From Candidatus Woesearchaeota archaeon (GTDB lineage Archaea > Nanobdellota > Nanobdellia > Woesearchaeales > SM23-78), in NCBI GenBank assembly GCA_016935175.1, contig JAFGRK010000013.1, forward strand, positions 1 to 32,257: a stretch of 32,257 bases of DNA, read 5' to 3'. The notes beneath the pieces are model-generated. The model was not told the DNA's origin, made no database searches, and was given only the letters and a program-made list of their open reading frames with translations. Of this stretch, positions 19,151 to 25,019 are shown one piece after another (the stretch's first letter is position 1; the number at the start of each line of letters is the position of its first letter). A program made the translations under genes and the position numbers.

Positions 19151-19159
19151 GATTTAAAT
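19151..19159 (+). promoter_or_regulatory. TATA box of the NAD salvage operon
   Basis: GATTTAAAT preceded by ACCGAAA, a good BRE. It predicts a start near 19182, inside the first inverted repeat. A second TATA-like sequence (AATATATAC) lies at 19129-19137. Confidence 0.6.
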
Positions 19160-19166
19160 AGTTAAT

Positions 19167-19183
19167 AGTGTATTCTAAACACT
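19167..19183. promoter_or_regulatory. Candidate operator 1 of the NAD operon
   Basis: Perfect inverted repeat AGTGT-N7-ACACT, flanked by TTAAT on the left and AA on the right. It starts 8 bp after the TATA and covers the predicted transcription start, the classic position for archaeal repression. The same architecture recurs at 19219-19235 and 23802-23818. Confidence 0.6.
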
Positions 19184-19186
19184 AAG

Positions 19187-19207: not shown

Positions 19208-19218
19208 TCACCTTAATA

Positions 19219-19235
19219 AGTGTCAAAAAAACACT
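19219..19235. promoter_or_regulatory. Candidate operator 2 of the NAD operon
   Basis: Second perfect AGTGT-N7-ACACT repeat, flanked by TTAATA and AA as in site 1. Its centre is 52 bp from that of site 1, close to five helical turns. It ends 3 bp before the SD of the first gene, so it could also act as an RNA hairpin. Confidence 0.55.
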
Positions 19236-19251
19236 AATGGAGGCGCACAAT

Positions 19252-20607
19252 ATGGAGCACAAACAAGACAAGACCCTTCTCACAGACCTGTATCAGCTGA
19301 CAATGCTGGCATCATACCATGACAACAACAAAGGCGAAGACACAGCCACCTTTGATCTTTTCATAAGAAAGCTGCCAGAAGACTGGGGCTACTTCATAGC
19401 CAATGGCATAGAAGACGCCATAGACTACATCACCAGCCTCAAATTTTCAGAATCAGACATAGAATACCTAAGAAAGCAGGAGTTCTTCAAGCCAGAGTTC
19501 ATAAAATACCTCAAAGACTTCAAGTTCGAAGGAGATGTGTGCGCAGTGAAAGAAGGCACGCTAATATTCCCAAACCAGCCAATAATGCGGGTGAGTGCCA
19601 AAAGGAGTCAAGCCCAATTCGTAGAATCTGCCCTCCTTAACATGATAAACTTCCAGACCATGATTACCAGCAAGACAAACAGGATTGTAAACGCGGCAAA
19701 AGAAGCCAAGATAGTTGATTACGGGCTAAGGAGAGCCCAGGAAGAAGATGCAGCAATGAAAGGAGCAAGGGCCACCTACATTGGAGGCGCAATAGGCACG
19801 AGCAATGTCAAGGCAGGCAAGGATTATGGCATAAAAATACTAGGCACGCAGGCCCACAGCTTTATCATGAGCTTTCCCTCAGAGCTAGAGGCTTTCAGGG
19901 CTTATGCCAAGACCTTCCCAAATAAAGGAACACTCCTAATCGATACATATGACACAATCCAGGGAGCAAAAAACGCAGCCATAGTAGCCAAGGAGCTGGA
20001 AAAGCAAGGAGACAGGCTGAGCGCAGTAAGGCTTGACTCAGGAGACTTATGCGACCTTTCCAAGAAAGTCAGGGAGATACTTGACAAGGAAGGCTTGCAC
20101 TATGTCAACATCGTAGCAAGCAATGACCTCAATGAATACAAGATAGAAGAGCTGAGAAAAAATGGAGCAAAAATAACAGGCTACGGGGTAGGCACAGAGA
20201 TGATAACAGCCAAACCAGTAGCAGCCGTCCCAGGAGTGTACAAGCTTGTTGAAGACAATGACGGAGCCAAGATCAAGCTTTCAGCTGAGAAAAAGACTTA
20301 CCCAGGCAAAAAGCAAGTTTACAGGATGGCAGGGGCTGATGGAAAATACTCTCATGACATTCTAGGATTGGACTTTGAGCCAATAGAAGGAACTCCGCTA
20401 CTGGAGAAAGTAGTCAAGCAAGGCAAGAGAGTGACAGCAAGGAGAAGCCTGGAAGAGATAAGGCAGTACGCGCTTGATAATGCCTCAAGATTGCCTGACC
20501 ATCTGAAAGAAGTCAAGGTGGCAAGGCACTACGAGATGAAGATATCAGAAGGATTGAGCAAGCTCATTGATAATCTCACGGATAAATATGGAAATGGAGG
20601 AAAATAA
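19252..20607 (+). CDS. pncB: Nicotinate phosphoribosyltransferase
   Basis: 451 aa from ATG 19252, eight bases after SD GGAGG; the ATG at 19237 overlaps that SD. It opens with LLTDLYQLTMLASY, followed by FDLFIRKLPEDWGYFIANG. The active-site segment VDYGLRRAQEEDAAMKGARA carries the conserved R-R and the phosphoribosylation histidine region (GTQAHSFIMSF). The phosphate loop region includes VRLDSGDL and GVGTEM. It makes nicotinate mononucleotide from nicotinate, PRPP and ATP, the first committed step of salvage. It is the first gene of the operon, behind two candidate operators. Confidence 0.95.
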   Translation: MEHKQDKTLLTDLYQLTMLASYHDNNKGEDTATFDLFIRKLPEDWGYFIANGIEDAIDYITSLKFSESDIEYLRKQEFFKPEFIKYLKDFKFEGDVCAVKEGTLIFPNQPIMRVSAKRSQAQFVESALLNMINFQTMITSKTNRIVNAAKEAKIVDYGLRRAQEEDAAMKGARATYIGGAIGTSNVKAGKDYGIKILGTQAHSFIMSFPSELEAFRAYAKTFPNKGTLLIDTYDTIQGAKNAAIVAKELEKQGDRLSAVRLDSGDLCDLSKKVREILDKEGLHYVNIVASNDLNEYKIEELRKNGAKITGYGVGTEMITAKPVAAVPGVYKLVEDNDGAKIKLSAEKKTYPGKKQVYRMAGADGKYSHDILGLDFEPIEGTPLLEKVVKQGKRVTARRSLEEIRQYALDNASRLPDHLKEVKVARHYEMKISEGLSKLIDNLTDKYGNGGK

Positions 20608-20608
20608 G

Positions 20609-20989
20609 ATGAAAAAGATTGAGCCAGAAAGCCTTAAGCAGCGCATTGAGACATATCTTGAGAGGGCCAAAAAGAACAGAGAAAAGGATGTGCCGTACTA
20701 TCCATTGGATCAGGTAGCAACTTATGAGATAATCGGAGGATACGACTTAGACTGGAGGCGGCAGGTAGACAACAGGTTTGTGACGGGAAAATTCATAGAC
20801 GCTCTTGTATATGCGCTTCACCAGCCTGAATTCTATGCTACCTGGTGCGATGATGATGACCTTAACAATTGCAACCATGGCTTTATCAGGAGAATGGATG
20901 ATCCAGTGCAAACCTTCAGTGCGAGGCAAATGCTTCCAACAGGAGATTATTTTGAAATAATTAAAAAATATGGGAGGGAAAAAAAATGA
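20609..20989 (+). CDS. Unknown 126-aa protein inside the NAD operon
   Basis: ATG 20609 lies one base after the pncB stop, with SD GGAGG inside the pncB end. The last four bases overlap the pncA start (ATGA), so it should be translated coupled with both. The N-terminus is a basic helix (ESLKQRIETYLERAKKNREK). The C-terminal half has an unusual acidic and Cys-bearing stretch, TWCDDDDLNNCNHGFIRRMD, then ARQMLPTGDYFEIIKKYG. The C, D and H residues could bind a metal. I recognise no family. Position implies a role in nicotinate/nicotinamide use or its control. Confidence 0.75.
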   Translation: MKKIEPESLKQRIETYLERAKKNREKDVPYYPLDQVATYEIIGGYDLDWRRQVDNRFVTGKFIDALVYALHQPEFYATWCDDDDLNNCNHGFIRRMDDPVQTFSARQMLPTGDYFEIIKKYGREKK

Positions 20990-21795
20990 AAATCTTTTAC
21001 GATGTGGACACGCAACGCGACTTCATGCACACGAACGGGGCACTATATGTGCCTGGTTCTGGCAAGATTGAGTCAAACCTGGAGGAACTAACAAATTTTG
21101 CAAGGATAGAGAGAATACCCATCTGGGGAAGCATGGACAGGCACTTTGAGAATGACCCTGAGCTCAAGAGAAATGGCGGACCATTCCCAGACCACTGCAT
21201 GAATGGCGCTACAGGTCAAAAACTTGTGGCTGAAACCAATTATGACGTGATAGATGTAGATATGGGGTATGCAACCAAGGTTATCCCGCACAAAGTATCG
21301 GAAAATCAAACCTATGACTGGAATCCCCAAAGGCTTTTTGGGGTTGTAAGACTTTTCCAGGCGGCGAGTGTAATGAATTACATGCGGGGAGTTAAAATAC
21401 TGATTCAAAGAGGGCCCAACATAATATTTGAGAAACAAGCAAATGATGTATTCACTAACCCGGCTGCAGAAAAGCTAATGCGCGCTCTTGAAGTCAAAGA
21501 AGCAGTCGTGTACGGAGTCGCAACAGACTATTGTGTTAAGGATGCTGTTCTCGGCATGCAAAAGAGAGGAATCCAATGTTACGTTGTGAAGGACGCCATT
21601 GCAGCAGTTACTACTAAAACCGGAAAAGCTGCGCTTGAAAAAATGGTAAAAGCAGGAGCAAAGCTAGTCAAGACTAAAGATGTGTTAAAGAATATGATGA
21701 AATGGGATTTACCTGATTATACGACATGGTTGAGTAAAGAAAAAGAAAGAGAACCCGATAAAAGTGGGCTCGTTGAATGGTTTGAGACAAAATAA
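20986..21795 (+). CDS. pncA: Nicotinamidase (isochorismatase fold) with a long insertion
   Basis: 269 aa. Catalytic triad D8 (DVDTQRDF), K150 (IFEKQANDVF) and C183 (GVATDYCVKDAV); metal ligands D51, H53 and H70 (SMDRHF, PFPDHC). It hydrolyses nicotinamide to nicotinate and ammonia, feeding PncB. Usual length is about 180-215 aa; here residues about 85-140 hold an added segment (DMGYATKVIPHKV...RLFGVVRLFQAA), and about 40 residues extend the C-terminus. ATGA overlap with the upstream gene; SD GGGAGG. Confidence 0.9.
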   Translation: MKIFYDVDTQRDFMHTNGALYVPGSGKIESNLEELTNFARIERIPIWGSMDRHFENDPELKRNGGPFPDHCMNGATGQKLVAETNYDVIDVDMGYATKVIPHKVSENQTYDWNPQRLFGVVRLFQAASVMNYMRGVKILIQRGPNIIFEKQANDVFTNPAAEKLMRALEVKEAVVYGVATDYCVKDAVLGMQKRGIQCYVVKDAIAAVTTKTGKAALEKMVKAGAKLVKTKDVLKNMMKWDLPDYTTWLSKEKEREPDKSGLVEWFETK

Positions 21796-21810: not shown

Positions 21811-22725
21811 ATGGGTGGAAATGCATTGGAAGACAGAATCAAGCTAGCAAAGATGAACCCTGAACTAGTAGCAAGCCAGATAGAGGATTTCATAATCAGG
21901 GAAATTGAGCAGTGCGGATACGGCGGCGTGGTTATAGGGCTTTCAGGAGGAGTAGACTCAACAGTCACAGCAGCCTTGGCCAAGAGGGCTTTTGACAGGT
22001 ACAACCATGCTCACCCTGACCAGCCACTGGAAGTAAAGGCTTACCTGCTTCCAGCACATACCAATGACCCTATAGACACTAGTGATGGAGTCAAGGCTGC
22101 AGAGCAGCTCAAGATAGATTATGAGCTTTTAAGCATCCAGCCTGTTATTGATTCTTACAAAGCCACTAACCCTGAGGCTTTTGAGAGCAACTATCATAAG
22201 GGTAATCTCATGTCAAGGATAAGGTCTAACATACTTTCTACCAAGGCAGCCACTGAGCAAAAGCTTGTGATAGGCACTGGCAACAAGGACGAGGACTTCG
22301 GTGTAGGCTACTATACTCTTTTTGGAGACGGGGCAGTGCACCTGAGCCCAATAGGAGGGCTTCATAAGAGGCTGGTGAGGGAAATGGCTCGCTACCTCGG
22401 GTTTGCAGGCATTGCAGACAGGATGCCAACTGCTGGCCTTGAGCCATGCCAGACTGACTTCAAAGACTTAGGCTACAAGTATGAAACTGTAGAGCTTGTC
22501 ATGGAAGGGTTGCGCCAAGGGTTCACTTGGAAGCAATTGCCAAAGCATAGCCAAGTGGTTGAATACGCAAAAAACGACATGAAAGAATATGCAAGGCTCT
22601 ATGGCAAGAGCAAGTTTAGCACTGTCAAGGCAATGGTGGAAGACATAAACAAGAGGAACAAGATAGCTAAAAAAAAGGCGCAGATAGTCAACCCCCCAAA
22701 GCCAATAATAACTTTGGAGTATTAG
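21811..22725 (+). CDS. nadE: NH3-dependent NAD(+) synthetase
   Basis: 304 aa from ATG 21811, after SD AAGGTGATA. PP-loop SGGVDS (45-50), and the ATP/NaAD segment GTGNKDEDFGVGYYTLFGDG followed by HLSPIGGLHKR. There is no glutaminase domain, so it uses free ammonia. It amidates deamido-NAD to NAD, the last step of the pathway. Somewhat longer than the usual 250-275 aa, with extra sequence around DPIDTSDGVKAAEQL. It lies 15 bp after pncA in the same operon. Confidence 0.94.
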   Translation: MGGNALEDRIKLAKMNPELVASQIEDFIIREIEQCGYGGVVIGLSGGVDSTVTAALAKRAFDRYNHAHPDQPLEVKAYLLPAHTNDPIDTSDGVKAAEQLKIDYELLSIQPVIDSYKATNPEAFESNYHKGNLMSRIRSNILSTKAATEQKLVIGTGNKDEDFGVGYYTLFGDGAVHLSPIGGLHKRLVREMARYLGFAGIADRMPTAGLEPCQTDFKDLGYKYETVELVMEGLRQGFTWKQLPKHSQVVEYAKNDMKEYARLYGKSKFSTVKAMVEDINKRNKIAKKKAQIVNPPKPIITLEY

Positions 22726-22766: not shown

Positions 22767-23678
22767 ATGAAACAAAAAAAAGGATTGATCATCGGAAAGT
22801 TTGAAGTTGTCCACCAAGGCCATGTCGATCTATTCACACAAGTGTCAGGGCGCAAGGACATAAGCCAAATAATAGCCGCGATAACAAGCAACAAGAAAAA
22901 TATATTCTCATGGGAAGAGAGAAAGAGCATGATAGAGCAAGCAGCAAATAGAATGAAGAAGCCTTTTGTGTTCTACAATGTGCCTGATATCAACAACCCA
23001 CCAATGTATGCAGAACATGTAAGGAGGATTATAGGCTTGCCTTCACTTGATGAGGTTGTGCTTTTCACAGGCAACCCTTACACTTCTAACTGCTTCAACG
23101 GCAAGTGCGGAATTGAAACCATCATGATTAAAACCCCTTATAGCTCCTCAAGGTTGCTGGAGATGATAGGCTCTGATGACAATGGCTGGGAAAAATTAGT
23201 GCCGAAATCAACAAAGAGGTTCATCTATGGACATAATGGCGTTGAGAGGATTAAGGAGCACTTCAACAAGGTCCCAGGCCCTCACAAGTTCCCTCGCCTG
23301 GCAACTGACATAATCATAGAATACCAAGGAGGAGTTGTACTTATTGAAAGGAAGAATGAGCCTTTTGGCTGGGCCATGCCAGGTGGCTACCACGAGCTAG
23401 GCTTGTCAGCAGAGAAAAACGCTGCAAAAGAGGCAAAAGAAGAGACAAGCCTTGACATTAATGTCAAGTACTTGCTTGGCTTTTACAGCGATCCAAAAAG
23501 GGATGTCAGGGCACACACAGCATCTGCTGTCTTTGTCGCAGATGGTCATGGAGCACTAAAAGCTGATGATGATGCAAAGGATGCCAGGGTATTCAAGAAA
23601 GAGGAAGTGCCTTGGGAAAAGCTTGCGTTTGACCATGCCAGGATAATCAAGGATTATTACGATAAAAAAGATACTTAG
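22767..23678 (+). CDS. nadM: Archaeal-type NMN/NaMN adenylyltransferase fused to a Nudix domain
   Basis: 303 aa. Residues 1-165 are NadM: GKFEVVHQGH (10-19) is the G-x-F-x-x-x-H-x-G-H nucleotidyl motif, and YSSSRL (125-130) the ISSTxxR-like motif. It joins (nicotinate) mononucleotide to AMP. Residues about 175-300 are a Nudix domain with MPGGYHELG and KEAKEE (221-226). The box is degenerate: the Glu of Gx5E is Leu and the R of REUxEE is Lys, but the metal-binding Glu residues remain. NadM-Nudix fusions are known in bacteria, where the Nudix part hydrolyses ADP-ribose. It follows nadE by 41 bp. Confidence 0.9.
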   Translation: MKQKKGLIIGKFEVVHQGHVDLFTQVSGRKDISQIIAAITSNKKNIFSWEERKSMIEQAANRMKKPFVFYNVPDINNPPMYAEHVRRIIGLPSLDEVVLFTGNPYTSNCFNGKCGIETIMIKTPYSSSRLLEMIGSDDNGWEKLVPKSTKRFIYGHNGVERIKEHFNKVPGPHKFPRLATDIIIEYQGGVVLIERKNEPFGWAMPGGYHELGLSAEKNAAKEAKEETSLDINVKYLLGFYSDPKRDVRAHTASAVFVADGHGALKADDDAKDARVFKKEEVPWEKLAFDHARIIKDYYDKKDT

Positions 23679-23801
23679 GAAAATTCAGGCTTAAGCATAG
23701 CCAAACTCTTTGCCAGTTATCAATATGAAAAAAATCAGGGCTAGATAGTCAAGGAGATAAGCAAGCTGATTGATTTTTCCCCCATGACAAAATTTATAAA
23801 T

Positions 23802-23818
23802 AATGTATGCCATACACT
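23802..23818. promoter_or_regulatory. Candidate operator 3, at the Nudix-regulator promoter
   Basis: AATGT-N7-ACACT followed by AA: the same layout and spacer as the NAD-operon repeats, with one mismatch in the left arm. It begins right after the TATA (ATTTATAAA, 23792-23800) and precedes the leaderless ATG at 23826. It also contains the perfect palindrome TGTATG-C-CATACA. Confidence 0.55.
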
Positions 23819-23825
23819 AACTTCT

Positions 23826-25019
23826 ATGGGTGAGGATGACATTAGTAAAAAGAATGAAGGAGCAATGAATTCTGTCGATATAATCTTTGACATAAACGGC
23901 AAAGAGGTGCTGCTTGTGAAAAGAAAAGCAGAGCCTTACAAAGGCTACTGGGGCCTTCCTGGAGGCAAGCAAGAGCCATTTGAGAAATTGGAGAGCGCAG
24001 TAGTGCGAGTGCTAAAGCAAAGGCTCAACCTTGATGTTAGCGGAGACTTTTCCCAGATGCCCAATGTATTGGTGTTCAATGAGCTGAAAAAAGAGGCAGA
24101 GCTCCACCAGATAAGGACATATGACTCAGGAGCAGACCCAAGAGGAGGCAACACAACTGTGTTTGCCATCCAGCTGCACATTTCACCTGAAAAGCTTATG
24201 AAAGTGATTAAGCCAGGATTCAAAGTGGCAGAAGTAAAGCTGGTGAGCAAGCAAGAGCTTCCTAAGCTGGCATTTGACCACCTGAAATTCATAAACGACT
24301 ATTATAAGTACCTCAAGCCTTACAAGGACAGCGCCAAGACTTATGACTCAAGCAAGTATGAGAAGCCTTCTGTGACAGCAGACATGCTGATATTCACCAT
24401 AAGAAACAATGAGCTGCAAGTGTTGCTGATAAAGAGAAAGTCCTGGCCTTTCAAGGGTATGTGGGCAATACCAGGAGGGTTTGTGGGGCTGAACGAGCCT
24501 ATTGATGAGGCTGCAAAGCGAGAATTGCTAGAGGAGACAGGAGTGAAGGATGTGTATCTTGAGCAGCTCTACACCTTTGGAAAGCCAGAAAGAGACCCAA
24601 GGACAAGGGTGATAACCATCGCATATTATGCACTCATATCCTCTGCTAATGTGAAGCTAGAGGCTTCCACCGACGCTGCAGATGTGGCATGGCTGCCAGT
24701 TGACAATATCCCCAAGCTCGCATTTGACCACAACGAGATAGTCGACTACGCCATAAGCAGGATAAGGAACAAGATTGAGTACACTAACATCGCGTTCCAG
24801 CTCCTTCCGGAAAAGTTCACCTTGAGTGAGCTGCAGAAAGTGTATGAGGTAATCCTTGGAAAAAAGCTTGATAAGAGGAATTTCCGCAAGAAAGTCAAGG
24901 AAACAAGAGTGCTTATCCCTTCGAAGGACTACAAGATGGAAGGGGCGCACAGGCCTGCGCAGCTTTTCTCCTTCAAGGAAAAAGGCCAGAGCATACTTAA
25001 GGCTAGCAAGAAAGTGTGA
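23826..25019 (+). CDS. Double-Nudix protein with C-terminal winged helix, NrtR-type NAD regulator candidate
   Basis: 397 aa from ATG 23826; the earlier ATG 23784 precedes the TATA. Residues 13-165: first Nudix domain, box degenerate (LPGGKQEPFEKLESAVVRVL, catalytic REUxEE lost). Residues 183-315: second Nudix domain with a perfect box (G218, E224, R232-E233, E236-E237). Residues 322-395: winged helix LLPEKFTLSELQKVYEVILG, KKLDKRNFRKKV, characteristic of NrtR-family proteins, which repress NAD genes and sense ADP-ribose through their Nudix domain. NrtR normally has one Nudix domain. It may be enzyme, repressor or both. Separate promoter, immediately after the NAD operon. Confidence 0.82.
   Translation: MGEDDISKKNEGAMNSVDIIFDINGKEVLLVKRKAEPYKGYWGLPGGKQEPFEKLESAVVRVLKQRLNLDVSGDFSQMPNVLVFNELKKEAELHQIRTYDSGADPRGGNTTVFAIQLHISPEKLMKVIKPGFKVAEVKLVSKQELPKLAFDHLKFINDYYKYLKPYKDSAKTYDSSKYEKPSVTADMLIFTIRNNELQVLLIKRKSWPFKGMWAIPGGFVGLNEPIDEAAKRELLEETGVKDVYLEQLYTFGKPERDPRTRVITIAYYALISSANVKLEASTDAADVAWLPVDNIPKLAFDHNEIVDYAISRIRNKIEYTNIAFQLLPEKFTLSELQKVYEVILGKKLDKRNFRKKVKETRVLIPSKDYKMEGAHRPAQLFSFKEKGQSILKASKKV

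Follow-up and report, generated by a model that had tools for sequence, protein, structure and literature searches.

A small gene lying between pncB and pncA in a woesearchaeal NAD operon (positions 20609-20989, forward strand; 126 codons, 126 aa) was assigned to an archaeal NrtR regulon, in which it is optional. Support for this assignment is good, because the NAD operons that contain the gene share twin operators, and because the strong operator sites in the window (the whole 32,257 nt stretch of DNA analysed, from a 1.22 Mb assembly in 35 contigs) lie only before pncB and nrtR. The product belongs to a woesearchaeal family with no assigned function. It probably assists NAD metabolism as an optional accessory, without being one of the pathway enzymes.

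The open reading frame is a real gene. Homologs in other genomes matched it at 37-41% identity with E values down to 5e-20, indicating that it is coding. The pncB stop codon occupies 20605-20607 and the ATG of the small gene (20609) follows one base further; its TGA (20987-20989) overlaps the pncA ATG at 20986. These coordinates bear out the one-base gap and the ATGA overlap (20986-20989, forward strand) described in the first-pass annotation, and the overlap points to translational coupling. A Shine-Dalgarno motif, GGAGG (20596-20600, forward strand), was read from the sequence 8 nt 5′ of the small-gene ATG, within the end of pncB, and GGGAGGG precedes pncA. Given these sites, a longer TTG-started ORF from 20567 was unnecessary for the small gene and was set aside.

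All genes of the surrounding cluster are on the forward strand. The nicotinate phosphoribosyltransferase gene pncB (19252-20607; NF006696, E 9e-170) starts at 19237 in the ORF list, and 19252 was preferred on account of a GGAGG located 8 nt upstream. A pncA-like gene (20986-21795) encodes an isochorismatase-family amidohydrolase with the isochorismatase fold, which scores below the NCBIfam nicotinamidase cut-off. It is followed by nadE, encoding NAD synthase (21811-22725; TIGR00552), and by a gene for an NMN adenylyltransferase-like domain fused to a Nudix domain (22767-23678; assigned from Pfam and NCBIfam). A second, better-scoring nadE of the genome (E 5.5e-87) lies outside the window, at G000:C30:3818-4546. 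The regulator is also encoded nearby: nrtR (23826-25019) specifies two Nudix domains and the NrtR winged helix and is the likely repressor, matching PF21906 in Pfam at E 4e-26 and the NCBIfam model for the ADPR-responsive repressor at E 3e-67, under the curated cut-off of that model. The listed nrtR start at 23784 is probably wrong and the ATG at 23826 likelier, since the interval 23793-23820, ahead of this internal ATG, holds a TATA box and an operator.

Upstream of pncB, a TATA box (TTTAAATA, 19153-19160, forward strand), whose position is conserved in at least four genomes, is followed by operator 1 (TAGTGTATTCTAAACACTA, 19166-19184, forward strand), a conserved palindrome matched by the operator matrix, and 52 bp after it by operator 2 (AAGTGTCAAAAAAACACTA, 19218-19236, forward strand). 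Another operator (TAATGTATGCCATACACTA, 23801-23819, forward strand) precedes nrtR, suggesting autoregulation. The weight matrix was trained on relatives only, with the window excluded, and 20 Markov-simulated windows served as background. Only three strong sites were detected in the window (23.2, 21.5 and 17.6 bits; the best site in the Markov windows reached 16.0), two before pncB and one before nrtR, placing a conserved palindromic operator upstream of both the NAD genes and the regulator (19166, 19218 and 23801). Each of the four NAD operons that carry a family member is preceded by two copies of TTAGTGT-N7-ACAMTAA with a spacing of about 52-54 bp; the leading copy directly follows the TATA box, and the other sits immediately ahead of the first gene. 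Twin operators were absent from all non-NAD homolog loci. The proposal that the small gene is made with the salvage enzymes was thus supported and extended, as homologs recur in NAD operons in four genomes with twin NrtR-type operators each time. The same boxes also mark NAD operons without the small gene in G002, G006, G009 and G428, of which G002 and G006 belong to the same genus as the window genome and have kept the operon. The small gene is therefore optional. The family is also enriched where the regulator is encoded: NrtR occurs in five of seven family carriers against 52 of the 353 genomes of the order (hypergeometric p about 0.001, with two carriers sharing a genus).

The arrangement resembles the NrtR regulons of bacterial NAD metabolism (family background in PMC4666351), for example that of Mycobacterium (PMC6800001). 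In both, the gene for a repressor with Nudix and winged-helix domains lies beside NAD genes, the palindrome has an N7 spacer, and an operator precedes the regulator's own gene. The present regulon differs in its archaeal host, in its half-site (TTAGTGT, as against GTTTTCGA in mycobacteria), in operators that come in pairs behind a TATA box (spacing about 52-54 bp), in the second Nudix domain of the window regulator, and in taking in an unclassified small gene. Judging from co-location and from the N7-spaced palindrome bound by mycobacterial NrtR (PMC6800001), NrtR is the presumptive protein binding these operators.

Several other genes were noted in the operator-marked NAD operons of related woesearchaea. 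ADP-ribosylglycohydrolase genes (PF03747) are present at L067 (4088-5107) and L071 (10880-11926). Recurrent beside nadE/nadM in the same regulon are a protein kinase, an unclassified protein and a pyruvate-kinase-barrel protein (L075, 6480-9763; L069, 806-3529; L021, 15239-16222; L073). The kinase and the barrel were Pfam-confirmed in L075 only, and the unclassified protein, which has no Pfam match, looked vWA-like by eye. A radical SAM gene also recurs (L022, 13367-14248; L075, 3589-4473; L071, 9512-10384); it was Pfam-confirmed in L022 and L075, and in G046 it lies behind a second twin-operator pair.

The family is rare and woesearchaeal, with 11 confident loci in 10 genomes when the L065 contig is treated as a separate genome (G000, G003, G009, G040, G046, two in G096, G280, G428, G511 and L065). 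With the first profile it was found in 7 of 353 genomes from the order, and the wider class yielded additional members. Searching a contig collection with an alignment of four homologs returned four loci, all from Candidatus Woesearchaeota, and added L065; the window protein alone gave no match in the same collection. Viral contigs contained no relative. A weak match in G427 (E 4e-7, C-terminal part only) stands outside the 11 confident loci. Also left uncounted were G215, where the match falls within a PEP-utiliser-like protein, and G238 (E 0.009, internal stop). An ORF of G280 between the NAPRTase and pncA-like genes (L021, 11338-11790) is unclassified, occupies the same position as the small gene of the window and bears a weak likeness to the family; it was not counted as a second copy (profile E 0.058, hhalign probability 9%).

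No family match above threshold was obtained for the small protein in Pfam, NCBIfam, PADLOC or PDB sequences, confirming the initial impression that it belongs to no recognised family. PHROGs gave marginal matches only, the best being phrog_33851 (E 6e-4), a weak sequence likeness over the core to a PHROG whose function is unassigned; in the relatives, the profile of this PHROG matched only one member of the same small-protein family. The conserved positions in the 11-member alignment are mostly aromatic residues and glycines (Y16, R19, Y39, G60, F75, G91 and Y92); neither a catalytic set nor a metal-ligand set is conserved in it. The first-pass annotation had singled out a TWCDDDD-x5-C-N-H segment as conserved-looking and possibly metal-binding. 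C80, C87 and H90 are each replaced in several of the 11 homologs, and this reading was therefore dropped.

The structure prediction suggested at that stage yielded a fold but, from two moderate-confidence models, no significant PDB match. AlphaFold was run on an alignment of five sequences only, the window protein and related loci. The model of the window protein reached a pLDDT of 68.6 and a pTM of 0.65, and that of the L065 homolog 77.3 and 0.71. The predicted fold has an alpha-beta-beta-alpha-beta-alpha core. The best PDB hit had an E value of 0.34, and ribosomal eL20/L18A-type chains appeared repeatedly. In the viral structure library (BFVD), two unnamed phage proteins, A0A0A0RTI2 and A0A6J5LHZ5, showed a weak fold likeness over the core (E 8e-4 and 6e-3, TM-scores about 0.4), which is a lead only.

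Four of the 11 homolog loci are NAD-linked. With HIT denoting the small-family member, the window operon reads pncB-HIT-pncA, then nadE, and that of G003 (L022) reads HIT-pncB-pncA-nadE-radical SAM-Nudix. In G280 (L021), NrtR is encoded upstream of HIT-NAPRTase-ORF-pncA-like-GNAT-nadE-Nudix-nadM, where the pncA-like and GNAT genes were assigned from sequence and position, the former without a Pfam or NCBIfam match. In G046 (L020), NrtR is likewise encoded upstream, and the order is HIT-small ORF-nadB-nadA-nadC. The other seven loci have no NAD genes nearby and no common neighbourhood theme. The first-pass annotation had held that homologs occurring mostly outside NAD operons would count against a role in NAD metabolism. 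Read literally, this is the distribution found, yet four of 11 is far above random placement, given that, by estimate, ten or so of the roughly 1,400 genes in a genome are boxed.

Taken as a tentative reading, the product would be a small soluble accessory protein of the woesearchaeal NrtR regulon, which binds or modulates rather than serving as a pathway enzyme. In this mechanism, NrtR would occupy the twin operators and so cover the NAD operon's transcription start and leader. Its release, which in bacteria occurs on ADP-ribose or an NAD-related ligand, would allow joint transcription of pncB, the small gene, pncA and nadE, and the small protein would then be made by translation coupled to pncB and pncA. 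It would most likely act by binding, either in partnership with other proteins or as a metabolite-binding modulator of NAD-metabolism proteins, and would thereby adjust the output of the NAD operon. The binding role is suggested by an absence, namely that of any significant match to a solved fold, and NAD metabolism is the presumed target. The basic activity of the protein need not concern NAD synthesis, because only four of the 11 loci are in NAD operons and neither pncB nor nadE is detectable in three family-bearing genomes, one of which, G427, has the family only as a weak match. It is conceivable, though doubtful, that the proteins form a new archaeal family of small regulators for post-translational control of NAD synthesis, which would have been recruited more than once, behind twin NrtR operators, to salvage and de novo genes.

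The most interesting rival holds that the protein, rather than helping biosynthesis, is a small module resembling an effector or a chaperone, in a Nudix-regulated regulon that deals with NAD/ADP-ribose stress or conflict. Bacterial systems centred on ADP-ribosylglycohydrolase (ARG) combine Nudix regulators with vWA and small chaperone proteins (PMC9503650). Like them (PMC9503650, section 3.8), the archaeal regulon has a Nudix-type regulator, an ADP-ribosylglycohydrolase (here in the operons of relatives, L067 and L071, with a protein kinase gene in L075) and variable small accessory genes, and the patchy, divergent and optional occurrence of the family would suit such accretion. However, the core here is NAD synthesis, no phosphatase partner was seen, and the window operon itself has no ADP-ribosylglycohydrolase. 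PADLOC gave nothing beyond a marginal JetA match, and tblastn with two homologs against 50,697 phage records found no relative. We consider this explanation unlikely.

If the protein served PncB or PncA as a dedicated subunit or activator, close to the partnership first proposed, this would account for the translationally coupled position between the two genes in the window and for the homologs directly upstream of the NAPRTase gene in G003 and G280. The adjoining NAPRTases of these two genomes, however, belong to different subfamilies, and the homolog of G046 sits with nadB-nadA-nadC in a genome that is 97% complete and has no detectable pncB. G096, G040 and G427 have no nadE above the cut-off and no detectable pncB or isochorismatase. 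Occurrence is thus not confined to genomes with pncB or pncA, indicating that the family has no obligatory link to PncA, to PncB or to NAD synthesis itself. The proposed partnership is weakened accordingly; in its strict form it is unlikely, and as a general explanation we regard it as improbable.

The product might also be a general small protein with an unrelated role, whose gene reached NAD operons fortuitously or through horizontal transfer. The seven loci without NAD linkage or a shared gene-content theme would fit this explanation, but four of the 11 belong to NAD operons marked by operators and come from at least two lineages of the family, which would be unlikely if placement were random. 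We think this explanation distinctly improbable. In the tree of the 11 members, the copies of G046, G003 and G280 form a clade (94/95 support) and the window copy falls outside it, although G003 is of the same genus. At least two separate recruitments into NAD operons are therefore likely but not proven: no inner branch reached the strict support level, and label shuffling gave equal clustering in 42 of 500 cases.

Least probable of all is a role as co-regulator, in which the protein would bind NrtR or the NrtR ligand and so exert feedback on the operon: the family member is the first gene directly after operator 2 in three of the four cases (G003, G046 and G280), and the family is enriched in genomes with NrtR, but the small gene is second in the window operon, homologs occur in genomes without NrtR (G096 and G040), and NrtR needs no such partner in the bacteria studied (PMC6800001).

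The reading of the small protein as an optional accessory of the NrtR regulon bears on how these archaea manage their NAD supply. Woesearchaeota are small-genome archaea in which whole biosynthetic routes are often missing. No description of the regulation of NAD supply in this group was found in the literature searched. An operator-marked NrtR regulon is now defined in woesearchaea, with an unclassified small protein flagged as its optional member, and together they give experiments on NAD control in DPANN archaea a place to start.
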